DNA of 33,593 bases from assembly GCA_016794835.1 (NCBI GenBank), contig JAEUJL010000028.1:1-33593 (forward strand), given 5' to 3'. Below are positions 12,046 to 33,593 of the stretch, one piece after another. Origin of the DNA: Gemmatimonadota bacterium. Its GTDB lineage: Bacteria > Gemmatimonadota > Gemmatimonadetes > Gemmatimonadales > Gemmatimonadaceae. The position numbers and the translations under genes are program-made. Position 1 is the stretch's first letter. Every line of letters starts with the position of its first letter. The notes under the pieces were generated by a model, which saw nothing but the letters and a program-made list of their open reading frames with translations, searched no databases and was not told the DNA's origin.

Positions 12046-15000
12046 TCACCTATCGGCACCTGCCAGTTCGCGCTCGCGAAGGTGAGACCAGAGGATGGGC
12101 ACGACCACCAGGGTGAGTATCGTGCTGGACGCCATGCCACCGATCATCGGGACCCCGATCCGCTTCATCACGCTGGCGCCCGTCCCATCGGCCCACAGGA
12201 TCGGGAGGAGGCCAATCATGGTGGACGCCACCGTCATCATCTTCGGGCGCACCCGCTCCACCGCCCCTTCCATCACCGCGAGATACAGGTCCATACGCCC
12301 CGGCCGCCGACCGGCTTCCCCCGCCTGCGCGGCGCGCCGCGCCCACGCCTGGTCGAGGTACACCAGCATCAGGACCGAGGTCTCGGCCGCCACTCCGGCC
12401 AGGGCAAGGAATCCCACCGTCACCGCCACCGACCAGTTGTAGTCGAGCGCCCAGAGCAACCACACGCCCCCCACGAGCGTGAACGGCACCGACAGCATGA
12501 CGAGCAGCGTCGCGCCAACACTGTGGAAGTTGAAGTACAGCAGGAGGAATACGATGACGAGGGTCGCCGGGACGACCAGCCGCATGCGCTCGGCGGCGCG
12601 CTGCATGTACTCGAACTGTCCGCTCCAGGTGAGGGTGTAGCCTGGCGGCAGCGACACACCGCGCGCGATCTCCGCACGCGCGCGGGCGACGTAACCGCCG
12701 AGGTCGTCACTGGCGACGTCGACGAAGACCCACGCCGTCGGCACGGCCCCTTCCGTGCGGACGACCATCGGGCCCGGTACCTGCTTGATGGTGGCCACCT
12801 GGCCGAGCGGGACCTGCGCCGTCCGCGCAGCGGTGGGCATACCCCCGGCACTCCCCATCGCGGCAGGGACTGCGAGGCGTCCTCCCTCGTGCGCCACGGG
12901 GACAAGGACAGCGGCGAGACGCTCCGGCGTGTCGCGCAATTCCTGCGGGTACCGCACGCGTACCCCGTAGCGCGCGCGCCCCTCCACGGTCTGGGTGATG
13001 GTCATGCCGCCAATGGCGGTGGCGATGACGGTCTGCACGTCGCCGACATTGAGGCCGTGCCGGGCCGCCGCCTCGCGGTCGATGTCGATGTCGAGGTAGT
13101 AACCGCTGACCGCGCGTTCCGCGTACGCACTCCGTGTTCCCGGGAGACCCTGCAGCACACGCTCGACCTCGGTCCCGAGTCGTTCGAGGACGGCGAGGTC
13201 AGGCCCGAACACCTTGACCCCCACTGGGGTGCGGATCCCGGTCGCGAGCATGTCAATGCGCCCGCGAATCGGCATCGTCCACGCATTCGTGACGCCCGGA
13301 AGGCGAACCGCCGCGTCCATCTCGGCAATGAGGGCTTCGGTCGTGAGTCCGGGGCGCCACATGGCGCGGGGCCTGAGCTGGATCGTGGTCTCGGCCATGT
13401 CGAGCCCCGCAGGATCGGTCGCCGTGTTGGCCCGCCCGGCCTTGCCCCACACACTCTCCACCTCTGGAAAGCGTGCGAGGATCGCGTCCTGCTGCCGAAG
13501 GAGCTCGCGCGCCCGTGCCACGCTGATGCCGGGCAGCGTCGTCGGCATGAAGAGGATCGTCCCCTCGTCCAGCGGCGGCATGAATTCGCTCCCGAGTCGC
13601 TGGAAGGGGATCCAGGTCAGGACAAACAGGGCGACGGCGCCCCCAACCACGCCGGCGCGGTGGCGCAGGGCCCACTCGAGCACCGGACGATAGGCGGCGA
13701 TAAGGAGCCGACTCAGGGGATTCGCGTGCTCCCGGTAGATGCGCCCACGGATGAACATCCCCATGAGCACGGGAACCAGGGTGACGCTGAGGAGGCTCGC
13801 CGCCGCCATCGCGAGGGTCTTCGTCAGCGCGAGCGGCTTGAAGAGGCGTCCTTCCTGTCCCTCGAGCGTGAACACCGGGAGGAAGGAGACCGTGATGATG
13901 AGCAGGGAGAAGAACAGCGACGGGCCCACCTCCCGCGCGGCCGCCCGTGCCACCTCCCAGCGCTCCGTGGCGGTGAGCGACGCGGTGTCGATGAAGGCCG
14001 CCCCGTCCGGCATCCGCCGTTCCAGGTGCTTGTGCATGTTCTCGACCATCACCACCGCGGCGTCCACCAGCTCGGCGATCGCGAGGGCGACCCCGCCTAA
14101 CGACATGAGATCCACCCCGATCCCCAGCGTCTTCAGGCCGAGGAAGGCCACCAGCACACTGACCGGGAGGGTGACCACCGCCACCAGGGCCGACCGGGCG
14201 TGCAAGAGGAAGACAATGCAGATCGCGGCGACAATGAGCGCCTCCTCCCACACCGTCCGGCGCAACGTGTCGATCGCCTCGAGAATGAGCCCGCTCCGGT
14301 CGTACACCGGCCGCACGACCACTCCCGGTGGCAATCCGGCGGCGACCGCCACCATTCGCTCCTTCACCCGCTCGATGGTCAACAGGGCATTCTCGCCGGA
14401 TCGCATGACCACGATCCCCCCGACGGCATCGCCGCGACCGTCGAGGTCCGTGATGCCCCGGCGCACCGCGGGGCCGATGGTGACGCGTCCCAGTTCCGCC
14501 ACGCGGACCGGGGTGCCCGCGGGAGTGGCCCCGACGACGACCTGCTCGATATCACCAATGCCATCGAGGTAGCCGAGGCCACGCACCATGTGCTCGCGCT
14601 CGGAGAGCTCCATGACCATGGCGCCAACATCGCTGTTCGCTCCCTGGAGGGCCGCCATGACGCTCGTCACCGGGATCCCGTACGCCAGGAGGCGCGCGGG
14701 ATCGAGGTCCACCTGGTACTGCTTCTCGAACCCACCCACGGTTGCCACCTCGGCGACGCCCGGCACTGCGGTGAGGGCATACCGGATCGACCAGTCCTGC
14801 AGGCTGCGCAACTCCGCGAGGCTCATCCGACCGGTGGTATCCTCCAACACGTACTGGTAGACCCAACCCAGGCCGGTCGCGTCGGGACCCAGGGTCGGAG
14901 CGACCGTGGCGGGGAGGCGTCCGCGCAGGCCCGCCAGGTACTCCAACACGCGCGTGCGCGCCCAATACAGGTCCGTCCTGTCGTCGAAGATCACATAGAC

Positions 15001-15279
15001 GAACGAGATGCCGAAGAACGAGTACCCGCGCACCGTCCGGGCGCCGGGCACCTTGAGCATCTCGGCCGCGATGGGATAGGTGACCTGGTCCTCAACGATC
15101 CGTGGCGCCTGCTCCCCGTACTCCGCCTGCACGATGACCTGCACGTCCGAGAGGTCCGGGATGGCCTCGAGCGGCACCGTGCGCAGCGCCCACAGGCCCG
15201 CCATCGCGAGGACGCCCGTGAGCAGGAGGACGACGAACCGGTTGCGGATGGACCAGTCGATCAGCGTGTGCGGACGCAT
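12046..15279 (-). CDS. cusA: CusA/CzcA-family heavy-metal efflux RND pump (Cu/Ag type)
   Basis: A 1077-residue inner-membrane RND pump that exports metal in exchange for protons. It starts with a typical TM1 (IRNRFVVLLLTGVLAMAG) and the PLEAIPDLSDVQVIV block of the heavy-metal subfamily. The TM4 proton-relay region is AELVDAAVVMVENMHKHLE, with the expected Asp and Glu. The periplasmic metal cleft has LDMAETTIQL and RIDMLATGI, whose Met residues correspond to what I recall as Met573 and Met623 of E. coli CusA, favouring Cu(I)/Ag(I) over Zn/Co/Cd. The C-terminal part has VRPKMMTVASTMIGLLPILW. ATG 15279 is preceded at 7 bases by AGGAGGA, which lies inside the end of the adaptor gene. It is last in the efflux operon. 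A CGTTAGGC site codes Ser-Leu-Gly near TM4. Confidence 0.93.
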   Translation of the reverse strand: MRPHTLIDWSIRNRFVVLLLTGVLAMAGLWALRTVPLEAIPDLSDVQVIVQAEYGEQAPRIVEDQVTYPIAAEMLKVPGARTVRGYSFFGISFVYVIFDDRTDLYWARTRVLEYLAGLRGRLPATVAPTLGPDATGLGWVYQYVLEDTTGRMSLAELRSLQDWSIRYALTAVPGVAEVATVGGFEKQYQVDLDPARLLAYGIPVTSVMAALQGANSDVGAMVMELSEREHMVRGLGYLDGIGDIEQVVVGATPAGTPVRVAELGRVTIGPAVRRGITDLDGRGDAVGGIVVMRSGENALLTIERVKERMVAVAAGLPPGVVVRPVYDRSGLILEAIDTLRRTVWEEALIVAAICIVFLLHARSALVAVVTLPVSVLVAFLGLKTLGIGVDLMSLGGVALAIAELVDAAVVMVENMHKHLERRMPDGAAFIDTASLTATERWEVARAAAREVGPSLFFSLLIITVSFLPVFTLEGQEGRLFKPLALTKTLAMAAASLLSVTLVPVLMGMFIRGRIYREHANPLSRLLIAAYRPVLEWALRHRAGVVGGAVALFVLTWIPFQRLGSEFMPPLDEGTILFMPTTLPGISVARARELLRQQDAILARFPEVESVWGKAGRANTATDPAGLDMAETTIQLRPRAMWRPGLTTEALIAEMDAAVRLPGVTNAWTMPIRGRIDMLATGIRTPVGVKVFGPDLAVLERLGTEVERVLQGLPGTRSAYAERAVSGYYLDIDIDREAAARHGLNVGDVQTVIATAIGGMTITQTVEGRARYGVRVRYPQELRDTPERLAAVLVPVAHEGGRLAVPAAMGSAGGMPTAARTAQVPLGQVATIKQVPGPMVVRTEGAVPTAWVFVDVASDDLGGYVARARAEIARGVSLPPGYTLTWSGQFEYMQRAAERMRLVVPATLVIVFLLLYFNFHSVGATLLVMLSVPFTLVGGVWLLWALDYNWSVAVTVGFLALAGVAAETSVLMLVYLDQAWARRAAQAGEAGRRPGRMDLYLAVMEGAVERVRPKMMTVASTMIGLLPILWADGTGASVMKRIGVPMIGGMASSTILTLVVVPILWSHLRERELAGADR

Positions 15280-15282
15280 GGG

Positions 15283-16602
15283 CTAGTCCTCCTTTCGCCG
15301 ATGGCTCGTGTCCCCCGCCTGGCCCCGCACCACCGGAGCGGCAGCGGGCGGCATGGTGATCTCCATCCCCGGCATGTCGCCCATGCCGCCTAACGCGGTC
15401 CCCAGGTTGGACTCGGCATCCACGAGGAACGTACCCGTGGCCACGACCGTGTCGCCGAGCGCCACCCCGCGAAGGATCTCGACCATCTCGTGCGTCGTGG
15501 CGCCGATGGTCACCTGGCGCGGCTCCAGCCGGCCGTCGGCACGCTTCACGAACACGAGGGATCGTTCCCCGGTGACGAGGACGGCGTTCCGCGGCACCAC
15601 CATGACCGGCGCGGCCCCACTCGCCGCACCGGCAATCGTCAAGACGGCGGCCATCCCGGGCTTCAGGCGCAGTCCGCGGTTCGCCATCTCGACGCGCACC
15701 CGCGCGGTGCGCGTCTCCAGTGACAGGGTGGGCGCGACCCAGGAAATCCGGCCGCTCCACCGCTCCCCGGGCAAGGCGTCGAACTCCGCCGTCACCAACT
15801 GTCCGATGCGCACGGCCCGGAGGTCCTGTTCGTATACCTCGCCTTCCACCCAAACGGTGGAGAGGTCGGCCACGCGGAAGAGGAGGTCACCGGCCATGAC
15901 GCGCTGCCCCGGCGTGACGTTCTTCTCCACCACCACGCCCGACGCCGGCGCGTACAGCGTCACGGTGCGCTCGGCGCGCCCCCCGTCCTCGATGCGCGCC
16001 ACCATCTGGGACGGGATCTCAAGCAGCGCGAGGCGGTTCCGCGCCGCCTCCACCAGGTCCCGGGCGTTGGCGAGCGCTTCCGGGGTGCCACCCGCCACCG
16101 TCGCCTGCAGGCGGCGCGCGAGCAGCAACTCTTCCTGCAGGGCGACCAGCATCGGGGAATACAGGCTCAGCAACGGCTCGCCCCGACGCACGGCTCGTCC
16201 GGTGAAGTCCGCGTGGAGCGTCTCCACCCACCCATCGACGCGCGACCCCACCGCCGACTGGCGTGTCTCGTCCACCGACACCTGGCCGGCCGTTCGCACC
16301 TCACGGGACAACGCCTGGAGGGCAACCGGCGCGTAGGTCACACCGATCCGTCGCGCCTGGTCGCTCGACAGGGTGACGAGGCTGCCTCCGCCGGATGAAT
16401 CGCGCGCGACCATTGCCGCGTGGTCGTGCGCGCCGGTCGCCGCCGGCGCCGCCCCGGGCTCGCGCGTCATCCACCAGGCCACCCCGAGGGCGAGGAGTGG
16501 CAGCAGGACACCACCGGCCGTGCTCACCATCCTCCGTGAACCGAACGCCGCGGCAGTCGCGGCGTCGGCCGGCGTCGAGTCGTGCAACGGGCGCTCAGTC
16601 AT
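15283..16602 (-). CDS. cusB: CusB-like periplasmic adaptor (membrane fusion protein)
   Basis: A 439-residue adaptor that links the inner-membrane pump to the outer-membrane factor. A single N-terminal membrane anchor spans about residues 26-46. It is followed by a short His/Met-containing stretch (GAHDHAAM), then the barrel-sandwich and hairpin region with VDGWVETLHADFTGRAVRRG and the CusB-typical LYSPMLVALQEELLLARR near 148. The VEKNVTPGQRVMAGDLLFR and VWVEGEVYEQDLRAVRIGQ blocks and a C-terminal membrane-proximal domain complete the fold. The C-terminus is Met-rich (DMPGMEITMPP), in keeping with metal hand-over. ATG 16602 overlaps the end of the outer-membrane factor gene by 8 bases; longer frames upstream lie inside that gene. 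Its TAG is 3 bases before the pump ATG. A CGTTAGGC site encodes part of TALGGM near the C-terminus. Confidence 0.92.
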   Translation of the reverse strand: MTERPLHDSTPADAATAAAFGSRRMVSTAGGVLLPLLALGVAWWMTREPGAAPAATGAHDHAAMVARDSSGGGSLVTLSSDQARRIGVTYAPVALQALSREVRTAGQVSVDETRQSAVGSRVDGWVETLHADFTGRAVRRGEPLLSLYSPMLVALQEELLLARRLQATVAGGTPEALANARDLVEAARNRLALLEIPSQMVARIEDGGRAERTVTLYAPASGVVVEKNVTPGQRVMAGDLLFRVADLSTVWVEGEVYEQDLRAVRIGQLVTAEFDALPGERWSGRISWVAPTLSLETRTARVRVEMANRGLRLKPGMAAVLTIAGAASGAAPVMVVPRNAVLVTGERSLVFVKRADGRLEPRQVTIGATTHEMVEILRGVALGDTVVATGTFLVDAESNLGTALGGMGDMPGMEITMPPAAAPVVRGQAGDTSHRRKED

Positions 16603-17929
16603 GGAACGACTCCGGGGGCGATGAATGGGTGGGGAGAAGGGACTGACCGAGGAGCATCTCGAGTTCCGCCCAGGCTCGACCCTCATCCGCCTCGAGGGCG
16701 AGCAGTTCCTGGCGATACCGGTTCAGCATCATCCGGCTTTCGAGGACCGTCATGACATCCACCCCTCGATTCCGGTAGGCATTGAGCGTCGCATCGGCCG
16801 TCGCGAGCGCCTGCGGCAAGACGGTGCCCTGGTACAGCGCCTTGAGGCGTCGCGTGCTGGCGATCGCCAGCCGGGCCTCGGTCACTTGCGCACGGGTTTC
16901 CGCGCGCATGCCCGCGACCTCCGCCTCCGCCATGCGCCGCATGGCCGCGGCCTCCGCGCGCATCGGGAGTTGGCGGGACCGCGCAAAGATGGGGAGCGAG
17001 GCGCCGAACATCAGCGATCCCATCCGGTCGATCCCCATCTCGGCACGACGCTGGCCATACTGCATCCCGACTTGCAGATCCGGCCAGCGCTCTCGGCGCG
17101 CAACGTCGCCATCGGCAACGGTGACGCGCACATCGGCCGCGCCTGCCGCAAGCATGGGCCGCGCGTCCAGTGCCTTCAGCAGCAAGTGGTCCAGCGACGG
17201 CACGGAGTCCGGAAAGAGAGGGAGGACCGGCGCTCCCGCAACCGCATCCGCACTCGTGTCGGCGATCGACGCGAGCCGCGAAACCGCGACCTCCTCCATC
17301 GCGGTCATTCGGATGATGTCCTCTTCCATCCTCGCGACCTCGACCTGCGCGCGTAACACGTCGGACTGCTGCCCCTCCCCGACCGCATACATCGCGCTCG
17401 CCGCGGTGGCGGCTTCCTGCAGGAGGCGGCGGCCTTCGACGGCGACCCGGGCGGCCTCCCACGCATACCAGCGGTCGTAGTATGCCATGGCCGCCGCGGT
17501 CCGGGCCTCCCATACGGCCACACCAACCCGGGACTCCGCCGCCACCACGCGAGCCCGCGCCGCCATCGATGCCGCAGAGAGCTTGCCGGGAAGCGGGACC
17601 ATCTGCATCACCTGCAGCTGGGCCATCCCCAGGCCGGGATCGGGCCGCAGCGCAGGCAGTGTGTAGTTCATGAAGCCGAGCTGGACCTGCGGATCCGGTG
17701 GTCGTGCCGTCCCAGGCACGCGCGCATCGGCCGCGCGCGCGCGGGCGTCGGCCGCAAGGACGCGGGGACTGCGCGTCGCGACCAGCGCCTGGAGGGCGTC
17801 GAGTGTCAGGCGCCGCGGCTGCGCCTTGCCGGGGAGTGGAATGAGCGCGCAGGCAGCCGTGATCGCCACGCGGGCGCCTCGGAACCACCGCGTGCGCGCA
17901 AGGGCACGAGGATGAAACGGTCTGGACAC
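16595..17929 (-). CDS. TolC/CusC-like outer-membrane efflux protein
   Basis: A 444-residue outer-membrane factor forming the exit duct of the metal pump. A cationic N-terminus and hydrophobic stretch (VAITAACALIPLPGKAQ) serve as signal peptide. The mature protein has two long heptad-rich Ala/Arg helical pairs typical of TolC. The block QVMQMVPLPGKLSAAS near 105 is characteristic of metal-type outer-membrane factors, and the second half repeats the pattern with GASLPIFARSRQLPMR. I chose GTG 17929 because GAGAGG lies just upstream; TTG 17944 in frame is the alternative. The gene overlaps the adaptor gene by 8 bases, so outer-membrane factor, adaptor and pump are encoded in that order in one operon. 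Confidence 0.88.
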   Translation of the reverse strand: MSRPFHPRALARTRWFRGARVAITAACALIPLPGKAQPRRLTLDALQALVATRSPRVLAADARARAADARVPGTARPPDPQVQLGFMNYTLPALRPDPGLGMAQLQVMQMVPLPGKLSAASMAARARVVAAESRVGVAVWEARTAAAMAYYDRWYAWEAARVAVEGRRLLQEAATAASAMYAVGEGQQSDVLRAQVEVARMEEDIIRMTAMEEVAVSRLASIADTSADAVAGAPVLPLFPDSVPSLDHLLLKALDARPMLAAGAADVRVTVADGDVARRERWPDLQVGMQYGQRRAEMGIDRMGSLMFGASLPIFARSRQLPMRAEAAAMRRMAEAEVAGMRAETRAQVTEARLAIASTRRLKALYQGTVLPQALATADATLNAYRNRGVDVMTVLESRMMLNRYRQELLALEADEGRAWAELEMLLGQSLLPTHSSPPESFHD

Positions 17930-18005
17930 GGGACCTCTCGTCAAGTGTTGCCGCAGAGTTCACGCGGCGAAAACGGCGCCCGTCGGTGGACGCCGCCTGA
18001 CGAGT

Positions 18006-24706: not shown

Positions 24707-26074
24707 TTACATCGCCTGCAGCACATCGTATCCCGTCAGCACGTAGACCTTGTTCGCCGGGAAGTCACGCACCAGGACCGCCGGGTTCTCCGGCGTGATC
24801 ATCGGGGCGAGCAGTTCCACCGGGGTCTCGATGTCGACGTAGGGAAACGCCTTCTGCATGATCCCCTGCACCGGCCCGCTGCGCACCGCGGGATCCTTCA
24901 CGATGCAGGCGTAAGCGTGCGCCTCGGACAGGGAGCCCACGATGCGCTCCTCCTTGGTCACGGGGATCTGGGAGAAGTTGTTCTCGCTCATTTGTCTGAC
25001 GGCCTGGTCCACCGTGGCCGTGACCGGCACGCCGACGATGTCGGAGACCTTCTTGTTCCGCACCAGGGTGCGCGCCGTCGCCCCGGGCAGCGGCTCGTAC
25101 CCGGTCCGGAGCATCCAGTCGGGATTGAAGATCTTCCCCAGGTAGCGCGTGCCGTGGTCATGGAAGATCACGACCACCGTCTCGCCGGGCTGGAACCGCG
25201 CCTTGAGCTGGCGCAGCCCGGCAATCGCCGACCCCGCCGAGTATCCGGCCCAGATCCCTTCCTGCCGCACGATCTCCCGCGTGAAGATCGCCGCATCACG
25301 GTCGGTCACCTTCTCGAAGTGATCGATGATCGAGAAGTCCACGTTCTGCGGGAGGAAGTCCTCGCCAATGCCCTCGGTGACATAGGGGTAGATCTCGTGC
25401 TTGTCGAGGATCCCGGTCTCCTTGTACTTCTTGAAGACCGAGCCGTACGTGTCGACCCCCCAGACCTTCACGCTCGGCTTCTGTTCCTTGAGGAACCGGC
25501 CCGTGCCGCAGATGGTCCCCCCGGTCCCGACCCCCACCACCAGGTGGTCGACCTTGCCTTCGGTCTGCTCCCAGATCTCGGGCCCGGTGGTCTCGTAGTG
25601 CGCCGCGCTGTTGGACAGGTTGTCGTACTGGTTGGGCTTCCAGGCGTTGGGGGTCTCACGCTCGAGGCGCGAGGAGACGGAGTAGTACGACCGGGGATCC
25701 TCGGGCTCCACGTCCGTCGGGCAGACAATCACCTCGGCGCCAAAGGCCCGCAGCGCATCCACCTTCTCGCGTGACTGCTTGTCCGTGGTCGTGAAGATGC
25801 ACTTGTAGCCCTTCACGATCGCGGCGATCGCCAGCCCCATCCCCGTGTTGCCGCTGGTGCCCTCGATGATCGTCCCCCCGGGCTTGAGCACGCCGCGACG
25901 CTCGGCGTCCTCGATCATGCGGACCGCCATGCGATCCTTGATGCTGTGGCCGGGGTTGAAGGTCTCGACCTTGGCATAGACGGTCGCCGGGATGTCAGCG
26001 ACCAGCTTGTTGAGGCGCACCAGCGGGGTGCGGCCGATGGTGCCGAGGATCGAGTCGTGGACGTTGAACGGCAT
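24707..26074 (-). CDS. cbs: Cystathionine beta-synthase with C-terminal CBS domain pair
   Basis: A 455-residue cytosolic PLP enzyme that condenses homocysteine with serine (or an activated serine) to cystathionine. The fold-type II catalytic domain covers about 1-330, with PLP lysine Lys46 in GHSIKDRMA, the substrate loop EGTSGNTGMG at 71, and the phosphate-binding GTGGTICGTGRFLKE. From about 335 there is a pair of CBS domains (VRNKKVSDIVGVPVTATVD, NNFSQIPVTKEERIVGSLS), the adenosyl-ligand module that distinguishes this family from plain O-acetylserine lyases. The length agrees with bacterial two-domain forms. ATG 26074 fits the family start; GTG 26083 in frame is an alternative. No partner cystathionine lyase gene is in the window. 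Confidence 0.92.
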   Translation of the reverse strand: MPFNVHDSILGTIGRTPLVRLNKLVADIPATVYAKVETFNPGHSIKDRMAVRMIEDAERRGVLKPGGTIIEGTSGNTGMGLAIAAIVKGYKCIFTTTDKQSREKVDALRAFGAEVIVCPTDVEPEDPRSYYSVSSRLERETPNAWKPNQYDNLSNSAAHYETTGPEIWEQTEGKVDHLVVGVGTGGTICGTGRFLKEQKPSVKVWGVDTYGSVFKKYKETGILDKHEIYPYVTEGIGEDFLPQNVDFSIIDHFEKVTDRDAAIFTREIVRQEGIWAGYSAGSAIAGLRQLKARFQPGETVVVIFHDHGTRYLGKIFNPDWMLRTGYEPLPGATARTLVRNKKVSDIVGVPVTATVDQAVRQMSENNFSQIPVTKEERIVGSLSEAHAYACIVKDPAVRSGPVQGIMQKAFPYVDIETPVELLAPMITPENPAVLVRDFPANKVYVLTGYDVLQAM

Positions 26075-26179
26075 GGAGCACACGGGTGGTGGCGTGGAAC
26101 CCTGCGGGTGCGCAGCAGGTGCGGGGTGTCCCCATGCGTCGCCGGGGACGACGAAAGATACCCGGTCGGGTCAGGGATG

Positions 26180-26203
26180 CCCACGCGCCAGCGCGCGCGT
26201 GGG
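26180..26203 (-). terminator. Hairpin between the hydrolase and cystathionine synthase genes
   Basis: CCCACGCGC (26180-26188) and GCGCGTGGG (26195-26203) form a 9-bp stem with a 6-base loop, 12 bases after the hydrolase stop on the minus strand. A second small stem (ACCCG/CGGGT) and a tatcttt stretch follow. It probably ends the five-gene operon before the cystathionine beta-synthase gene. Confidence 0.5.
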
Positions 26204-26215
26204 ACGTTCGCCGCC

Positions 26216-27094
26216 CTATCGCCGCGGGACGAGCGCCCGCAGGCCGTCCATCACGGCGCGCCACGCCGGCGCGAACGGGGCGATCACGTCAAAGTGCCCC
26301 GCCCCGGGGACCTCGACCACATGGAGCCGCCGGTCCCCGGCCTCCATCGCGCGACGCACATAGGCGCGACCGACCGGGGCCCAGCTGGCATCCGCCTCCC
26401 CGATCACGGCCTCGGTGGGCACATCGATCGGCGCCAGCTGCATCAGGGATGCCGCCGCATAACGAGTGGGCACCTCGGTCGGCGACCCGCCCATCAGCCC
26501 GTTGATCACCTTCCCGCACACCCCCGCCTGGTGCAATCCCTCGAGGTCCGGGGCCGGTGCCAGCCCAAGCACCCCATGCACGCGCAGGGGATCCGGGTCC
26601 CGGAGCTCCGCCCCCGCCGGCAGCTTGTGACGCGCGGCCAGCCACAGCGCGAAGAAGCCGCCCGCGGAGTGCCCCGCGGCGATCACGCGGGTGAGGTCGA
26701 GCGGATACCGCCCGGCCACCGTGCGCAGGTAGTCCGCGCCGGCGGCGACGTCGCGAAAGGTCCCGGGCCAGCCGCCCCCGGGATTCCCGACGCGACGATA
26801 CTCGAGGCTCCACACCGCATAGCCGGAGTCCGCCAGCGCCTGCTCCAGCGGCGCCGCGTGCTCGATCCCGAACTGGGAAAGCCAACACCCGCCGTGGATG
26901 AACACCACCACGGGGAACGGGCCCGTCCCACGCGGGAGTCGCAGGTGACCGAACTGTTCCGGCGCCTCGCCGTACCGGATCACCTGGTCCGGTGCGCGCG
27001 TGGCGACCCCCATCACCTGCTGCAGGGTGACCGGCGCCTGCGCAGGCAGCGCCGCGGCACACGCGAGGAGTAGTAAGCTGGCGGTCGATCTCAT
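26216..27094 (-). CDS. Exported alpha/beta hydrolase (BD-FAE / carboxylesterase-like)
   Basis: A 292-residue protein with a signal peptide (STASLLLLACAAALPAQA). The esterase signatures are the oxyanion-loop motif HGGCW at 67-71, the nucleophile elbow GHSAGG at 141-146 (Ser143) and a C-terminal GAGHFDVI with the catalytic His. HGGxW occurs in kynurenine formamidase-like and BD-FAE-type esterases, but the export signal argues against a cytosolic kynurenine role. ATG 27094 has GGAGGG 3 bases upstream. It lies 59 bases after the VOC gene and is the last member of the minus-strand operon. It contains one of the few TTA codons outside the CGTTAGGC context (in the signal peptide). Confidence 0.85.
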   Translation of the reverse strand: MRSTASLLLLACAAALPAQAPVTLQQVMGVATRAPDQVIRYGEAPEQFGHLRLPRGTGPFPVVVFIHGGCWLSQFGIEHAAPLEQALADSGYAVWSLEYRRVGNPGGGWPGTFRDVAAGADYLRTVAGRYPLDLTRVIAAGHSAGGFFALWLAARHKLPAGAELRDPDPLRVHGVLGLAPAPDLEGLHQAGVCGKVINGLMGGSPTEVPTRYAAASLMQLAPIDVPTEAVIGEADASWAPVGRAYVRRAMEAGDRRLHVVEVPGAGHFDVIAPFAPAWRAVMDGLRALVPRR

Positions 27095-27153
27095 GAACCC
27101 TCCGGGTCCCGGGAGAGGTCGGTCGGTGCCCGATGGCCGGGTGGCGCGCCCCC

Positions 27154-27564
27154 TCACGTCGCGGGGACGGAAGGTCCGCACGGTTCGCGGAGCTGGAAGA
27201 CGTTACCCTCGGGGTCCGTTCCGTCCAGGTGGCGGCAGCCGCGCCATTCCCACGCGGACGCATCCGGCTGGAGGGTGCCCCCGAGGCGCGCGATCTCGGG
27301 CCGCGTGCCCGCGATGTCGGGGACCGGGAACGAGAGCTTGATCGGGGTGTCCTCGCGCGCCACGGGAGGGGACGCGATCTGGATCTCGGCGGCATACGCC
27401 TCCGGGATCTGGACCACCGAAAGCTCGTACCCGCGTCCGGAGAGGAGGACGAACCCGCGACCCTCCTCCGCGAACGCGAGCGACAACACCGCCTGGTAGA
27501 ACTCACGCAGCACGCGCAGTTCCTTCGCGTACAACACCGCCTGGAACACCATGGGTGGCGTCAT
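27154..27564 (-). CDS. VOC-superfamily (glyoxalase-like) protein
   Basis: A 136-residue cytosolic protein with the beta-alpha-beta-beta-beta layout of the vicinal oxygen chelate fold: FQAVLYAKELRVLREFYQAV, then ELSVVQIP, PIKLSFPVPDIAGTRPEIARLGG and DPEGNVFQLREP at the end. The closing DPEGNVFQL is the most diagnostic element. The first metal ligand His of glyoxalase I is not evident (LYAKEL in its place), so a bleomycin-resistance-like or binding role is as likely as an enzyme. ATG 27564 overlaps the TGA of the transporter gene (ATGA), so it is translationally coupled; ATG 27552 is a less likely start. Confidence 0.82.
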   Translation of the reverse strand: MTPPMVFQAVLYAKELRVLREFYQAVLSLAFAEEGRGFVLLSGRGYELSVVQIPEAYAAEIQIASPPVAREDTPIKLSFPVPDIAGTRPEIARLGGTLQPDASAWEWRGCRHLDGTDPEGNVFQLREPCGPSVPAT

Positions 27565-28796
27565 CGTGACCGTGCCGCCCAGGCCGCCGCCGTCACGTCG
27601 CCCGTCACGTTCACCACCGTCGCGCACATGTCCGGGATCAGGTCAACCGCGATGAGCACGCCGATCCCCTCGGCCGGGAGGCCCACGGCCTCGAAGAGCG
27701 GGGTCAGCAGGAGGAACGCGCCGCGCGGCACCCCAGGCGCGGCAAACGACACGAAGACGGAGGCCAGCGCCACCGTGGCGAGGCCACCCATCGTCAGGTC
27801 GACCCCATAAAACCGGGAGATGAACAACGCCCCCACGATCCACATCACCGGCGCCGCCGGCTTGAAGACACTGACGGCCAGTGGCAGGACGAACCCGCTG
27901 ACCCGCGAGGGAACCCCCAGGACGTCGGCGCTGCGCACCATGGCGGGCAACGACGCCACCGAGGACGACGTGCTGATGCCGATCAGTTGGGTGGGCAACA
28001 CCGCGGAGGCAAAGCCGCGCACCCCAGCCTCCCGGCCAGCGATCGGATAACACAGGGCCGTCACCGCCAGGCAGGTGAGCGCGATGGCCAGCACGTAGAA
28101 GCCCACGGCCCCCACGAGGGCCCCGCCAGCCTGCACCGCGAGTGGCAACATCAACGCGAAGACCGCCACCGGGGCCAGCGCGACGATCCACCCCACGAGT
28201 CGCGTCATGGCACTGCCTAACGAGGTAAAGAACCCCACCACCGGTGCGCGCTCCTCCGCCGTGCCCCGCGCCAGCGCGAGCGCGAGAAGCCCCGTGAACA
28301 CGATGAGCGACACCATGTTCCCCGACGCCGCGGCGGCAACCGGGTTCGACGGCAACAAGCTCATGACGAAGTCCATCACCCCCGTTGGCGCCGCCTTGGC
28401 CACCTCCGCGGCCGCCTCCTGCGCGCCGGGCGGCAGGGGGACCTTACCCACCAGCGCGGTCGGGAACAGAGCGAAGAGGGGCAGCGCGACGGCAAGGGTC
28501 ACCGCCGCGCTGCCCACCAACATCGCCCCAAAGATCCCCAGCGTCCTTGCCCCCAGGCGGCCAAGGCTCGCCACGTCAGCCGCCGCGGCGATCCCGGTGA
28601 TCAACAGCGACACCACCAGCGGGATCACGGTCATCCGGATCGCGTTCACCCACAGCACGCCCACCGGCTGGATCGCCGTGGCCGCCCGCGCGGCCCCGGC
28701 ATGCCCGCTCCCGGCGATGATCACGCCAAGCACCATCGCCGCGACGAGGGCGAGCAGCACGCGCGACCCATCGCCGCCGGGCAGCCGCACGGTCAC
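27561..28796 (-). CDS. Divergent DAACS (glutamate-transporter-fold) symporter, possibly neutral amino acid type
   Basis: A 411-residue inner-membrane transporter of the dicarboxylate/amino acid:cation symporter fold. Landmarks align with archaeal GltPh: HP1 STSSSVASLP near 275, HP2 AAPGVPRGAF near 352, and TM8 DMCATVVNVTGD at 389-400. Two hallmark sites differ. The TM8 arginine that binds acidic side chains (GltPh Arg397) is Ala392, and the TM7 sodium-site motif NMDGT is replaced by FKPAA (311-315). Asp389, Thr393, Asn396 and Asp400 are kept. I infer a non-acidic substrate and altered ion coupling. GTG 28796 overlaps the FabH TGA (GTGA); the long upstream frame lies inside that gene. A CGTTAGGC site encodes Ser-Leu-Gly near residue 192. 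Confidence 0.85.
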   Translation of the reverse strand: MTVRLPGGDGSRVLLALVAAMVLGVIIAGSGHAGAARAATAIQPVGVLWVNAIRMTVIPLVVSLLITGIAAAADVASLGRLGARTLGIFGAMLVGSAAVTLAVALPLFALFPTALVGKVPLPPGAQEAAAEVAKAAPTGVMDFVMSLLPSNPVAAAASGNMVSLIVFTGLLALALARGTAEERAPVVGFFTSLGSAMTRLVGWIVALAPVAVFALMLPLAVQAGGALVGAVGFYVLAIALTCLAVTALCYPIAGREAGVRGFASAVLPTQLIGISTSSSVASLPAMVRSADVLGVPSRVSGFVLPLAVSVFKPAAPVMWIVGALFISRFYGVDLTMGGLATVALASVFVSFAAPGVPRGAFLLLTPLFEAVGLPAEGIGVLIAVDLIPDMCATVVNVTGDVTAAAWAARSR

Positions 28797-29935
28797 GCCG
28801 GCCGCGGGGCGCTGAGCGTGCTTTCGGCGAACACCGGTGCCGCCAATCCCGCCGCGGAGCGCCCATGCGGATCCTGGCCCGCCCGGATCGCGTTCACCAT
28901 CTCCAGGGCACCGCGCGGGTTGTCCGGGAACGCCATCGACGACTCGCCTAACGGGGTCACCCGCTCTCCCCACTGCACGAGGAGGGCACCGAAGGTCAGC
29001 CCACCACCAAAGCCCGGCATCAGGATCCGCGCCCCGGGGGTGATGCGCCCGTCCTTCAGCGCCTCGACCAGGCTGACCGGCACGGTGGCCGCGCTCATGT
29101 TCCCGTACTTGTGCACGGTGACAATCACCCGCTCCATCGGCACCCCGGCGTACTTCGCCACCGATTCGATGATCCGCAGGTTGGCCTGGTGTGGGATCAC
29201 GAGGTCGATGTCGTCCGCCGTCACCCCGGCCTGCGCCATCACCCGTGCACAGGCTTCACTCATCCCCTTCACCGCGCGCTTGAAGATCGCCTGCCCATCA
29301 AAATCCCACGCCGTGTCCCCCAGGGTGATCCCCACCCCGGCATAGGTGCACCCCATCCCGCGCACCCGCAGCACCTGCCGCGCCTCGGCGTCGCAGCCGA
29401 GCACGGAGCCCAGCACCCCCTCGGGGCGGTCCGTGGCCTGCACCACCACCGCCGCCGCGCCATCGCCAAAGAGCACCGCCACATTGCGGTTGCTCCAGTC
29501 CATGTAGCGCGAGATCAGCTCCACGCCGATCACGACGGCATTGCGCACGGTGCCGTTCTGGATCATCGCGGTCGCCGTGGACAGCCCGTAGATGAAGCTC
29601 GTGCACGCCGTGTTCACGTCCATGGCCGCGGCCCGGGTGGCGCCTAACGCCACCTGCACCCCGCTCGCGCTGTTCGGCACGATCTCATCGTTGGAGCACC
29701 CGCCGTAGATGACCAGGTCCACGTCGCTGGCATCGAGGCCCGCGCACGCCAGGGCGCGCGACGCCGCCAGGGTGGCCATCTCGATCGCCGACACGTGCGA
29801 GATGCGCCGCTCCTTCATCCCGGTGCGCGTCGTGATCCACTCGTCCGAGGTCTCGAGGAAGGTCGAGAGGTCCTCGTTGCTCAGGACGGCCGGGGGCATC
29901 CCGTCGCCCCATCCGGTAATCGCCGCGTAGGGCAT
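28793..29935 (-). CDS. fabH: 3-oxoacyl-ACP synthase III (FabH family) with C-terminal extension
   Basis: A 380-residue ketosynthase III that condenses an acyl-CoA starter with malonyl-ACP. The catalytic triad is complete: Cys111 in DVNTACTSF, His249 in IPHQANLRI, Asn279 in KYGNMSAAT. TSDEWITTRTGMKERRI at about 29 and LMPGFGGGLTFGALLVQW near 305-322 are family signatures. It runs on about 55 residues past the usual end, with ERVTPLGESSMAFPDNP and an Ala/Pro-rich tail; typical FabH ends near 320. ATG 29935 shares one base with the dehydratase TGA (TGATG). The operon context with a threonine/serine dehydratase suggests propionyl-CoA as starter, which is inference. It has two CGTTAGGC sites (VALGATR and TPLGES). 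Confidence 0.9.
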   Translation of the reverse strand: MPYAAITGWGDGMPPAVLSNEDLSTFLETSDEWITTRTGMKERRISHVSAIEMATLAASRALACAGLDASDVDLVIYGGCSNDEIVPNSASGVQVALGATRAAAMDVNTACTSFIYGLSTATAMIQNGTVRNAVVIGVELISRYMDWSNRNVAVLFGDGAAAVVVQATDRPEGVLGSVLGCDAEARQVLRVRGMGCTYAGVGITLGDTAWDFDGQAIFKRAVKGMSEACARVMAQAGVTADDIDLVIPHQANLRIIESVAKYAGVPMERVIVTVHKYGNMSAATVPVSLVEALKDGRITPGARILMPGFGGGLTFGALLVQWGERVTPLGESSMAFPDNPRGALEMVNAIRAGQDPHGRSAAGLAAPVFAESTLSAPRPA

Positions 29936-30894
29936 CAGTTCCACCTCAGGCCGCGCAACTGGTCCAGGTTGAGGTTCCCGCCAGACAGGACCCCGACGAC
30001 CTTCGAGCCCGGGGGCACCTTGATCAAGCCATGCATCATCGCCGCCACGCTGGCGGCCGCCGCGCCTTCCACCACCAGCTTGCACCGCTCCATGATCCAG
30101 ATCATCGCGTCGAAGATCTCACGATCCGGGAGCGTCACGATCTCGTCCACGTGCCGCTTGACCATCTCGAAGTTGATCACCCCGGCCCGTCGCACGCGCA
30201 GCCCATCGATGATCGTCCGGCAATCGATCGTCTGCAGTTCGCCCGCGTCCAGGCTCATCTTCATCGCCGGACCGTCGGACGACTCCACACCGATCACCTT
30301 CGTCTTCGGGTTGTGCGCCTTGATGGCCTGGCATACCCCGGCGATCAGCCCGCCCCCGCCGATCGGGACGACGATCGCGTCCAGCTCCGGCCAGTCCTGC
30401 ACCACCTCGAGCCCCAGCGTGCCCTGCCCGGCGATGAGTTGCTCGTCATCGAACGGGTGGACGTAGGTGAGCCCCTCGGTGCGGACCAGCTCCTTCGCCT
30501 TTTCGTTGGCCTCGTCCCAGATCGACCCGTGCAGCACCACTTCGCCGCCATAGGCCTTCGTCGCCGCGATCTTGGCGGGGGTGGCGTTGGTCGCCATGCA
30601 GATGACGGCCCGGATGCCATGAATGCGGGCGGCCAGCGCGACCCCCTGCGCATGGTTCCCCGCCGACGAGCACACCACCCCTCGCCGTTTCTCCTCCTCC
30701 GGCATCTGGGCAAACTTGTTCAGCGGGCCGCGAATCTTGTACGAACCCACACGCTGGAAGCACTCCGCCTTCAGTCGCACGTCAAAGCCGGTCACCTCGC
30801 TCAGCTGCCGCGAGGTGAGGAGCGGGGTGTGCTTGATGTGGGGCGCAATTCGCGCCCGGACTTCCTCAAAGTCCGCAATCGTCAGGCTGCGCAT
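29935..30894 (-). CDS. Threonine/serine dehydratase (PLP, no ACT domain)
   Basis: A 319-residue PLP enzyme of fold type II that deaminates threonine to 2-oxobutanoate or serine to pyruvate. The PLP lysine is Lys53 in GSYKIRGP, the substrate loop SSAGNHAQGVA follows at about 77, the phosphate-binding loop is PIGGGGLIAG, and SGGNLNL lies near the end. The lack of a C-terminal regulatory ACT domain makes it a short catabolic (TdcB-like) or serine-racemase-like form rather than the allosteric biosynthetic IlvA. ATG 30894 (MRSLTIADFEEV) fits family starts; a TTG at 30918 has a GGGGTGA-like Shine-Dalgarno and is possible. It heads the coupled operon and lies 53 bases after the DUF5107 gene on the same strand, so transcription may begin further upstream. 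Confidence 0.9.
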   Translation of the reverse strand: MRSLTIADFEEVRARIAPHIKHTPLLTSRQLSEVTGFDVRLKAECFQRVGSYKIRGPLNKFAQMPEEEKRRGVVCSSAGNHAQGVALAARIHGIRAVICMATNATPAKIAATKAYGGEVVLHGSIWDEANEKAKELVRTEGLTYVHPFDDEQLIAGQGTLGLEVVQDWPELDAIVVPIGGGGLIAGVCQAIKAHNPKTKVIGVESSDGPAMKMSLDAGELQTIDCRTIIDGLRVRRAGVINFEMVKRHVDEIVTLPDREIFDAMIWIMERCKLVVEGAAAASVAAMMHGLIKVPPGSKVVGVLSGGNLNLDQLRGLRWN

Positions 30895-30947: not shown

Positions 30948-33593
30948 TCATGGACACGCTTGCGTCACCGCGGCCACGCGCGCCCGCACGGGCTCCCGCG
31001 TGAGGAACGGCGCCATTCCATCCTGCGTGAACGACCTGCCGGGGACCGGCACGGCCAGCCCGCGCACGATCGCCCGGGCCTCCTCGCATCGCCCACCCCG
31101 CGACGCGGCCAGCGCCCGCAGGGTGCGCACCTCCATCCAGACCCCGCGCGGGTTGGTGCCGCCCTCGACGCGCGAGAACCAGCGATCGGCGAACAACCGC
31201 TCGGCGTCGTCAAACCGGCCGGCCTCGGCCAACGCGCGCGCATAACGATAGACCAGCGCGGTTGGCATCCCGGCCTTGTCGGGGTAGCCATCGAGCAGTG
31301 TCGCCCGCGCGGCAGGCGACGCGCGTCGCAGCACCTGCACCGAGTCGGCGAGGCTCCAGACACCGGGGTTGCCCGGCTCCTTCCGCGTCCCCTCCACCAG
31401 CACGGCACCGGCCCGCGCCGTGTCACCCAGCAACAGCGCTGCTGCGCCGAGGTTGCGATACAACGACGGAAAGGTGACTCCGGCATCACGCAGCGCTTCC
31501 CACCGGCGGGCCGCCATGGCGACATCCCCGCGTTGCATCTCCACCATCCCGAGGAGGAACTGCGCGGTCGTGTCGCGCGGGTTCGCCCGCGTGGCGCTGT
31601 CCAGCACCTGTCGCACGACCGCGCCCTGGGGGAACACGTAGTGGACCGGGCGTTGGCTTGCGCTGTCCTGCAGGTGCGAGAAGTCCGTCAACTTCGTGGC
31701 CCACGTGTACCACTTGAGGTAGGCCACGATGGGGTCGTTCCGAGGGTGCGGCACCCCTGCTTCGGGCACACCCAGCGGCCCGGGAAGGGACCGCTCGAGG
31801 ACTCCCTGCGCCCAGAGTGACAGCCCGTACTCGAGGTAGCGCGACGCGATGCTGACGACCCGTGAGGGATCGGCCGCCAGCTCCGCGAGCAAGGTCCGAT
31901 CGGTCCCGCCTGCCGCGAGGACCTCCCAGCGTGCGAGAAGGTTGGACGGGTCCCGCTGGAGCGCCACCTGTCGCCAACGCGCCGATGCGCTCGCGCGCGA
32001 GGCGCCAGCAGCGCGCAGCAGGATGGCGGCCTCCAACGCGAGGTCCGCGTTGAGTGCGGCGGCCCGTTCCAGCCGGTTCGCCGCGTCAGCCAATCGCCCG
32101 AGTCGCGAATCGATCCTCGCGAGCCCCCGTTCAGCCGCCCACCGGAGCGGTCCCTGCTGCCGGGCGAACTCGAAGGCCAATCGTGCCTGGCGCAGGTCGC
32201 CGGCTCGCAGGTGGGCGAGGCCCCGGTAGTACGCCGTCTCGTGATCCCATGGCACCTGCAGGAGGTATTCGGCCAGCCACGCCTCGCCCTCTGCCTCGCG
32301 GCCCATCGAGACCGCCAAGCGGCCGGCCGCCTTGAGCAACGACAGGCTCCCGGGCACCGTGCGCAATCCCTCGCGGTACGCGGCGAGCGCGCCAAGCCGG
32401 TCGCCATTGACCTCGCGTTCCGCGCCCCAACTGAGCCATGCGCCATCCGACGCCCCCAGGCGCGGGCGGTCGCGAGGCCCGGGCTGCGGCCCCGGGTTCA
32501 CGAGCGAGTCCGCTGTGAAGTCGAACGCGTCTTCCGTCTGCGATATGACCACCACACCCGCGCGATCAATGACGGTGAACGTGACCGCCCCCGCACCGGC
32601 TGGCACGGGCCACTCCCACGACCCGGTCGACCGGGGCGAGAGATCATGCAGCGCGTTGTGCAGCGTGTGCCCCGCGGACCAGACCTGCAGGCGTGCCCCG
32701 GGCATCGCCTCGGCCACATTGAGGTCCACCCGCACGCGGGAAGGGTCACCCGCCGTCCGTCGGAGGTGCAGCGCAGCGCGTGGCGCCACCCGGGTCACCC
32801 CACCGAGACCGCGGAGCGGCAACCACGTCTCGGTGAACTCGATGTGGTCGTTGGGCTCGAGCCACGCGTACGTCTCCTGGTCCCGCAGGAGCCCGGCCTG
32901 GATCTCCACGTAGGCGCTCGAGTCATCCGACAGCGCGCGTCGCCAATCCATGGCATCGGCGTCCACTCCCCACGACCAGATCTTCTTGGCCGGCAATTCA
33001 TCCGGTGGTGCGTAGTGCCCCACGCCACTGTTGGTGCGCGGTTGCCAGATCGCCATGTAGCCCTCGCGACTCGCATGGCTGAAGCGGGAGACCGGCCCGT
33101 AGGTGTGGTTCCGCAGGACCGAGTTGTCCGTCCCGCGACGATCCACCGGCCAGGTGTCCACGTCCGTAAAGCCATGGGACGCGGTGTACTTCATCGGGTA
33201 CAGGATCTGCGTGTCGTCAAAGGCCCGCACCGCCGCGTTGGTCCACCAGTAGTAGCGCTGGCGCGTGTCGGACGGGTTGGTCAACGTGACGCGCTGATCG
33301 AGCGCCGCGCGGCCCGGGCGGAGCGACAGCTCAACGACCCAGCGCAGGCCATACACGCGGTCGGTGTTGGCCACGTACACGGAGGCGCGCCCGTCCGCAT
33401 GACGCCGCGTGGCCACCTCGACCGGTGAGGTCGTCATCCAGTTGTGCGACACCGGGAAGTTGAACTCGATCCCGAACGCCGCCCACGAGCCGCGATAGGC
33501 GATGTTCGAGAACTTCATCGCCGTGTTCGCGTAGAACATCTCCTGTCCATTGATCTTGTCGGTGCACCCGTACAGGTGGCCGCCAAGGTCCGG
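30948..33593 (-). CDS. DUF5107 - tetratricopeptide repeat protein (5' truncated)
   Basis: The frame runs off the right edge, with 881 codons visible. The segment beginning LGGHLYGCTDKINGQEMFYA, then WAAFGIEFNFPVSHNWMTTS and TNAAVRAFDDTQILYPM, is characteristic of DUF5107, a beta-rich domain resembling the galactose-mutarotase/glycoside-hydrolase sandwich fold; it covers roughly the first 290 visible residues. After a beta-sandwich linker, about residues 390-880 form tandem TPR-like helical pairs rich in Ala, Leu and Arg (for example GDRLGALAAYREGLRTVPGS and AGDLRQARLAFEFARQQGPL). The signal peptide, if any, is outside the window. DUF5107-TPR proteins are probably involved in carbohydrate handling, but no activity can be assigned. 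Confidence 0.85.
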   Translation of the reverse strand, partial: PDLGGHLYGCTDKINGQEMFYANTAMKFSNIAYRGSWAAFGIEFNFPVSHNWMTTSPVEVATRRHADGRASVYVANTDRVYGLRWVVELSLRPGRAALDQRVTLTNPSDTRQRYYWWTNAAVRAFDDTQILYPMKYTASHGFTDVDTWPVDRRGTDNSVLRNHTYGPVSRFSHASREGYMAIWQPRTNSGVGHYAPPDELPAKKIWSWGVDADAMDWRRALSDDSSAYVEIQAGLLRDQETYAWLEPNDHIEFTETWLPLRGLGGVTRVAPRAALHLRRTAGDPSRVRVDLNVAEAMPGARLQVWSAGHTLHNALHDLSPRSTGSWEWPVPAGAGAVTFTVIDRAGVVVISQTEDAFDFTADSLVNPGPQPGPRDRPRLGASDGAWLSWGAEREVNGDRLGALAAYREGLRTVPGSLSLLKAAGRLAVSMGREAEGEAWLAEYLLQVPWDHETAYYRGLAHLRAGDLRQARLAFEFARQQGPLRWAAERGLARIDSRLGRLADAANRLERAAALNADLALEAAILLRAAGASRASASARWRQVALQRDPSNLLARWEVLAAGGTDRTLLAELAADPSRVVSIASRYLEYGLSLWAQGVLERSLPGPLGVPEAGVPHPRNDPIVAYLKWYTWATKLTDFSHLQDSASQRPVHYVFPQGAVVRQVLDSATRANPRDTTAQFLLGMVEMQRGDVAMAARRWEALRDAGVTFPSLYRNLGAAALLLGDTARAGAVLVEGTRKEPGNPGVWSLADSVQVLRRASPAARATLLDGYPDKAGMPTALVYRYARALAEAGRFDDAERLFADRWFSRVEGGTNPRGVWMEVRTLRALAASRGGRCEEARAIVRGLAVPVPGRSFTQDGMAPFLTREPVRARVAAVTQACP

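Follow-up and report, generated by a model that had tools for sequence, protein, structure and literature searches.

A lineage-specific row of dehydratase, FabH2-type and permease genes in a Gemmatimonadota bacterium

The 33,593 nt contig JAEUJL010000028.1 of a Gemmatimonadota bacterium (assembly GCA_016794835.1) carries a row of five minus-strand genes encoding a pyridoxal phosphate (PLP)-dependent dehydratase, a beta-ketoacyl-acyl carrier protein (ACP) synthase III (KAS III, FabH), a permease, a VOC protein and an alpha/beta hydrolase. The whole contig, C706 of genome G000 in our collection, is referred to as the window; the assembly comprises 4.33 Mb in 894 contigs and is 82% complete, and the nearest named hits (79% identity) point to the family Gemmatimonadaceae. 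An initial annotation had read the row as a single process leading from imported threonine or serine to the start of fatty acids. This first reading is partly supported by the present analysis. The gene row has the appearance of a local and recent arrangement, not of a conserved pathway from amino acid to lipid. With moderate confidence we favour an amino acid catabolism operon that would take up and deaminate a hydroxy amino acid and into which a FabH2-type enzyme has been placed.

The gene row and its predicted products

The five reading frames and every junction of the row were re-verified from the sequence (Table 1). The annotated TGATG, GTGA and ATGA overlaps are present at all three junctions, and an exported-looking hydrolase, with a signal-like N-terminus as judged by eye, does start 59 bases after the VOC stop, at 27094. 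Bacterial operons commonly have overlaps of 1-4 bases. These speak for joint translation, and the genes may be jointly transcribed as well, but they do not argue for a single pathway. The hairpin reported after the hydrolase exists, but shuffled sequence folds as well as it does (z -0.43; 66/200 shuffles equally good); it lacks a T-run, nor is it one of the two terminator-like sites listed (1.7 expected by shuffling). As it does not go beyond composition, it gives no evidence for an operon end, and it was rejected as a terminator.

The dehydratase is predicted to be a threonine/serine ammonia-lyase. It barely exceeds the curated TIGR01127 cut-off (380.2 against 378.75 bits), and TdcB (2gn0) is its best solved relative. 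It differs from TdcB/IlvA threonine ammonia-lyases in lacking the C-terminal regulatory domain, the match spanning positions 1-291 of the 380 in the model. The hydroxyaspartate lyase profile gives 298 bits, under its cut-off of 452.

FabH scores 333.5 bits against TIGR00747 (cut-off 292.1), and the equivalents of C112, H244 and N274 are kept in all 20 aligned sequences. Its nearest PDB structures by sequence and by fold are those of V. cholerae FabH2 (4wzu, 4x0o, 4x9k, 4x9o and 5kp2), which make up the top five with Z 41.5-42.4 and 46-49% identity (model mean pLDDT 74); the phmmer match reaches FabH residue 348 with E 1.2e-115. Identity to BioZ structures is about 29%, and a reading of the enzyme as a BioZ was set aside. 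Like V. cholerae FabH2, the protein combines the Cys-His-Asn triad with a C-terminal tail after the usual FabH end, and by this tail past residue 322 together with its nearest sequence and fold it belongs to the FabH2 type. The tail is common to V. cholerae FabH2 and 11 of the 12 collection homologues aligned, and its bearers come from Gammaproteobacteria, Myxococcota, Acidobacteria, Acidimicrobiaceae and others. Unlike V. cholerae FabH2, the window family has an extra terminal stretch, QDPHGRS..GL.AP.F, which is largely conserved in 15 family sequences and missing from most other tail-bearing homologues aligned.

Residue 87 of E. coli FabH, a phenylalanine, limits primer length. At the same position 12 of the 15 family FabH sequences have V, two have C and one has A, which from the alignment is a hint of longer acyl primers, not of propionyl preference; octanoyl-CoA is named in two of the V. 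cholerae FabH2 PDB titles and acetyl-CoA in one (4x0o). The proposal that this FabH starts from propionyl-CoA thus lacks support: such a primer is possible, not indicated. One further FabH, 38% identical to that of the row, is found in the assembly, and we take it as the housekeeping copy because its stop directly abuts a sequence resembling, by eye, the start of fabD. A second KAS III beside a housekeeping FabH, with a similar proposed role, is also described for the RsFabW/PA3286 type. FabW of Ralstonia takes C2 to C10 acyl-CoA, and enzymes of similar role shunt medium-chain acyl-CoA into fatty acid synthesis (PMC4549310); a dispensable broad-range KAS III appears in another study (PMC11801535). 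A literature search in a partial collection gave no paper on V. cholerae FabH2 with octanoyl-CoA, on VCA0751 or on Gemmatimonadota FabH.

The permease belongs to the DAACS superfamily, its PF00375 match (263.6 bits, cut-off 27.9) covering residues 15-409 of 411. We assigned its positions in GltPh numbering by alignment to an ancestral aspartate transporter and to E. coli GltP and SstT. As in GltPh, GltP and SLC1 proteins the match is nearly full length and D394, N401 and D405 are kept, but the N310-M311-D312-G-T motif of transmembrane helix 7 (TM7) reads F-K-P-A-A, and R397 is A. According to PMC12668577, whether the substrate is acidic, neutral or a dicarboxylate depends on R397 and D394, and signatures are given for Na+ and H+ coupling, neither of which fits. 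The Na+ signature (N310, [M/S]311, [D/E]312) is replaced by F310, K311 and P312 with D405 kept, positions 92-93 not being securely placed in our alignment; the H+ signature (L311 and N405, as E. coli GltP has them) is replaced by K311 and D405. Loss of R397 with D394 kept agrees, by that rule, with a neutral amino acid, and to this extent the annotation of a neutral transporter is supported. Hydroxy amino acid uptake would be shared with E. coli SstT, which unlike the permease keeps NMAG in TM7. TdcC, found with TdcB, likewise serves hydroxy amino acid uptake; it comes from another transporter family, and its set is not known to include a FabH.

Out of 96 matches, 84 permease proteins, the window's own included, were read, leaving out 12 that were weak, partial or unfetched. 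Position 311 is basic (K/R, once H) in 70 of the 84, and none of these 70 has D or E at 312. R397 is lost in 40/69 evaluable basic-311 proteins against 0/14 others (p 4e-5, kinship uncorrected). The basic-311 proteins form one clade of 65 with support 1.0, and the other five form a second clade. Outside this order, FR stands for NM in two Sphingomonadaceae plasmid copies; five plasmid copies were read, out of 388 plasmid records with a match.

Table 1. Coordinates and supporting evidence of the features discussed.
Feature	Position	Strand	Details and basis
PLP-dependent threonine/serine ammonia-lyase (predicted), TdcB/IlvA catalytic part without C-terminal regulatory domain	29935..30894	-	319 aa; TIGR01127, PF00291, TdcB 2gn0
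FabH2-type beta-ketoacyl-ACP synthase III with C-terminal tail	28793..29935	-	380 aa; TIGR00747, Cys-His-Asn, V. cholerae FabH2 structures
FabH C-terminal tail	28796-28963		protein residues 325-380
DAACS/SLC1-type permease; NMDGT to FKPAA, R397 to A, D394 kept	27561..28796	-	411 aa; PF00375, alignments
VOC (glyoxalase-like) protein	27154..27564	-	136 aa; Glyoxalase_6 PF18029
Alpha/beta hydrolase, signal-like N-terminus (by eye)	26216..27094	-	BD-FAE PF20434
Cystathionine beta-synthase (CBS)-like protein, next gene in window, G001 and G003	24707..26083	-	PF00291 and PF00571
DUF5107/TPR protein, upstream of dehydratase	30948-33593		profile matches
TGATG junction, dehydratase/FabH	29933..29937	-	also in G001 and G003
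GTGA junction, FabH/permease	28793..28796	-	
ATGA junction, permease/VOC	27561..27564	-	
Hairpin 3' of hydrolase, 9-bp GC-rich stem, without T-run	about 26180..26203	-	folding against shuffles
Paralogous permease/dehydratase/barrel loci, L108-L111	G000:C159, G003:C5, G002:C15, G030:C27		
DAACS homologues read	window 27561-28796 and 83 others (L047-L065, L107, L109-L111, L209-L268)		

Gene order and co-occurrence in the family

FabH orthologues were sought in 60 genomes including that of the window, with wider stretches taken around the 14 other orthologues to compare gene order. The family search covered 179 genomes, again including that of the window, with E 1e-140 or better for FabH, 1e-110 for the dehydratase and 1e-95 for the permease group. 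It should be noted that broken assemblies can hide neighbours, and all counts within 5 kb are lower bounds.

An orthologue of the row FabH was found in 15/60 genomes (69-100% identity). Among the 14 other FabH loci the order dehydratase-FabH-permease-hydrolase-CBS occurs only in G001 and G003; it is missing from G002 and G004, two further members of the genus, so that it is kept in two of four same-genus relatives, or in three of five genomes with the window's own. The TGATG junction of dehydratase and FabH is kept in G000, G001 and G003, while no GTGA-type FabH/permease overlap was seen in G001 or G003, where the permease starts shortly after FabH. Between permease and hydrolase, G003 has a short gap and G001 an opposite-strand T4 gp19-like tail-tube gene (L032 11379-12116 (+)). 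The VOC gene, originally counted in the row, has no match in the row of either relative that keeps the order, and was rejected as a member of the unit.

FabH is present in 90 of the 179 family genomes, the dehydratase and the permease group in 39 each. FabH and dehydratase lie within 5 kb of each other in 3 of the 21 genomes having both, all in the window's genus and in one arrangement only. With the row dehydratase near FabH in 3/90 FabH-bearing genomes, the order is not conserved in the family, and the row does not represent a conserved amino-acid-to-fatty-acid operon of it. Nor do dehydratase and FabH co-occur in significant excess (21/179 against 19.6 expected, p 0.72). Permease and FabH likewise show none (23/179 against 19.6, p 0.28).

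Dehydratase and permease co-occur in 21/179 genomes against 8.5 expected (Fisher p 4e-7, kinship uncorrected). Counted over 35 genera, both are present in 10, the dehydratase alone in 2, the permease alone in 3 and neither in 20 (p 8e-5). The two lie within 5 kb in 4 of the 21 genomes with both, in two arrangements, where a simple random-placement estimate expects 0.05. One of the rows is that of G081 (genus g20), with the dehydratase (82-83% identical), a FabG-like short-chain dehydrogenase/reductase (SDR) and the permease; the SDR start overlaps the dehydratase stop, and the SDR occupies the FabH position of the window plan. The G081 row continues with DUF969, DUF979 and DUF2891 genes (L294 3505-9721). 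The SDR gene is directly upstream of the permease in 20/27 loci of the 50-60% permease group. Further, a paralogous permease stands with another PALP dehydratase and a barrel-like gene in G000, G002, G003 and G030 (four genomes, two genera), the latter gene having the look of an outer-membrane barrel by eye and no Pfam match. In G097 a close permease relative (72%) adjoins an M55 D-aminopeptidase and a PALP dehydratase. Thalassospira marina has an annotated threo-3-hydroxy-L-aspartate ammonia-lyase, RidA and then a canonical permease; no paper on a hydroxyaspartate dehydratase with RidA and a transporter was found in a partial literature collection. Because of the G081 row, the excess co-occurrence (kinship uncorrected), the paralogous pairs and the Thalassospira row, dehydratase and permease look like a functional pair, and theirs is the better-supported link.

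Surroundings of FabH and of the row

The other eight window proteins searched for (M20, hotdog, CBS, hydrolase, VOC, permease, dehydratase and TPR) gave no match at E 1e-3 in the retrieved flanks of 80/80 collection FabH loci, and were absent near FabH in 11/14 of the wider loci of relatives. A conserved FabH partner elsewhere was rejected, as a scan of 12 of the 14 relatives gave varied neighbours. In these 12 they comprise UPF0182, penicillin acylase, M24, phosphodiesterase, MaoC, S9 peptidase, chemoreceptor, histidine kinase, patatin, GMC oxidoreductase, protein kinase, acyltransferase and SDR genes, of which MaoC (G028), SDR (G027) and acyltransferase (G007) would suit lipid or CoA metabolism.

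Among the clusters listed for 23 collection loci, SDR genes are near FabH in at least 4 and a FabF-like gene in at least 3, as judged by eye. L149 and L150 are among these loci, and L150 is an ordinary FabH without tail. In L146 (8075-9313 (+)), from an Acidimicrobiaceae genome, the FabF-like gene (by eye) lies near a tail-bearing FabH, hence the FabH2 type is not always apart from fatty acid genes. In Pseudidiomarina (L141/L143, about 7070-7822 (+)) an enoyl-CoA hydratase-like gene, by eye, follows FabH2 and would suit a link to beta-oxidation.

In G001 and G003, too, the hydrolase comes after the permease. Nothing was found in support of the suggestion that it releases the amino acid outside the cell, its best Pfam match being the esterase family BD-FAE. 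The product of the CBS-like gene reaches 455 bits with TIGR01137, under the cut-off of 510. Elsewhere in the window (12046-17944), three minus-strand genes resemble, by eye, an RND metal-efflux pump, its membrane-fusion protein and an outer-membrane channel.

Competing explanations and meaning of the row

In the reading we favour, the permease would import a beta-hydroxy amino acid, most likely a neutral one (threonine or serine), and the dehydratase would deaminate it to 2-oxobutanoate or pyruvate and ammonia, products that could feed 2-oxoacid dehydrogenases. The FabH2-type enzyme would be an accessory gene, standing apart from the other row genes in most sampled relatives, and probably starts fatty acid synthesis with various acyl-CoAs, among them medium-chain ones. 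In one genus branch it lies between dehydratase and permease, where G081 of another genus has the FabG-like reductase, and co-expression may allow acyl-CoA from catabolism to be used for lipid synthesis. The most economical reading, to us, is an operon that is young and belongs to a single branch of the genus.

Several observations weigh against it. FabH and permease lie within 5 kb in 6 of the 23 genomes with both, in three arrangements (genus g1; g27, divergent; g26, with an SDR gene between) against 0.05 expected by the same simple random-placement estimate. The g1 and g27 arrangements could have one common origin, but since two genera besides that of the window show such closeness, FabH may not be a mere guest, and the lipid link is kept open. 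Kinship may account for part of the co-occurrence of dehydratase and permease, since genus g20 shows no excess (5 of the 18 genomes listed have both, against 6 expected), and in G100, colinear with G097, neither peptidase nor dehydratase is next to the permease. The primer length of the row FabH is uncertain because the housekeeping FabH of the same genome, with L at position 87, likewise lacks F there and because positions 205/207 are W/F, bulkier than L/M of E. coli; acetyl-CoA has also been soaked into V. cholerae FabH2 (4x0o). Finally, K311 leaves the neutral substrate uncertain and could favour an acidic one.

The last point leads to an alternative in which an acidic hydroxy amino acid, for example 3-hydroxyaspartate, would be the permease substrate, with K311 in place of R397 pairing with the side-chain carboxylate, and the dehydratase would act as a hydroxyaspartate ammonia-lyase. 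Loss of R397 only together with a basic 311 (kinship uncorrected) would fit, as would the annotated ammonia-lyase/RidA/permease row of Thalassospira. The dehydratase, however, scores best as a threonine ammonia-lyase, the only one of the two profiles for which it passes the cut-off, the Thalassospira permease is of the ordinary NMDG/R397 type and R397 is kept in 29/70 basic-311 proteins, and we regard this explanation as very unlikely. The substrate is more likely to be a neutral amino acid, though the relocated charge could serve an acidic one.

The route proposed at first, from imported threonine over 2-oxobutanoate to propionyl-CoA with the row FabH starting odd-chain or branched fatty acids, draws on the dehydratase-FabH coupling kept in three genomes, on the FabH-permease closeness in two further genera and on the two 2-oxoacid dehydrogenase E2 genes in the window genome. 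The same threonine-to-odd-chain chemistry is known as an engineered route in E. coli and yeast (PMC6987463), and Ralstonia FabW has the C2 to C10 acyl-CoA range given above (PMC4549310). We nevertheless judge it unlikely: the V. cholerae FabH2 titles name octanoyl-CoA and acetyl-CoA, position 87 hints at longer primers, FabH and dehydratase show no excess co-occurrence, and in 87/90 genomes the dehydratase is not within 5 kb of FabH, broken assemblies being able to hide some neighbours. Alternatively, unrelated genes could have come together by chance in one lineage, with shared expression through coupling and no common process. This would match the order being kept in three of five genus genomes, the G001 row without VOC and with its opposite-strand gene, and the separation of each gene from the others in most genomes bearing it. 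Against this, the dehydratase-permease and FabH-permease neighbourhoods recur in other genera above the random-placement estimate, and G000 and G003, with 79% FabH identity, have kept the dehydratase-FabH junction, so we find chance assembly rather unlikely.

Returning to the catabolism operon with its accessory FabH2-type gene, we further put forward a bolder and doubtful idea on the basic-311 branch of SLC1/DAACS permeases. Here K or R would replace the sodium motif, transport being sodium-free or the substrate held by the relocated charge, and in this lineage the permease would be the hub of catabolic operons joining PLP dehydratases with FabG- and FabH-like enzymes, with uptake wired to lipid initiation.

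As an arrangement of known kinds of enzyme, the row is modest and lineage-specific. Its analysis corrects a tempting pathway reading and places a FabH carried by 90/179 family genomes in the FabH2 type. In the 84 proteins read, the permease branch combines a basic 311 with a 312 that is not acidic, and R397 is never lost without a basic 311; the branch is a possible natural test of how the glutamate-transporter family lost sodium coupling.

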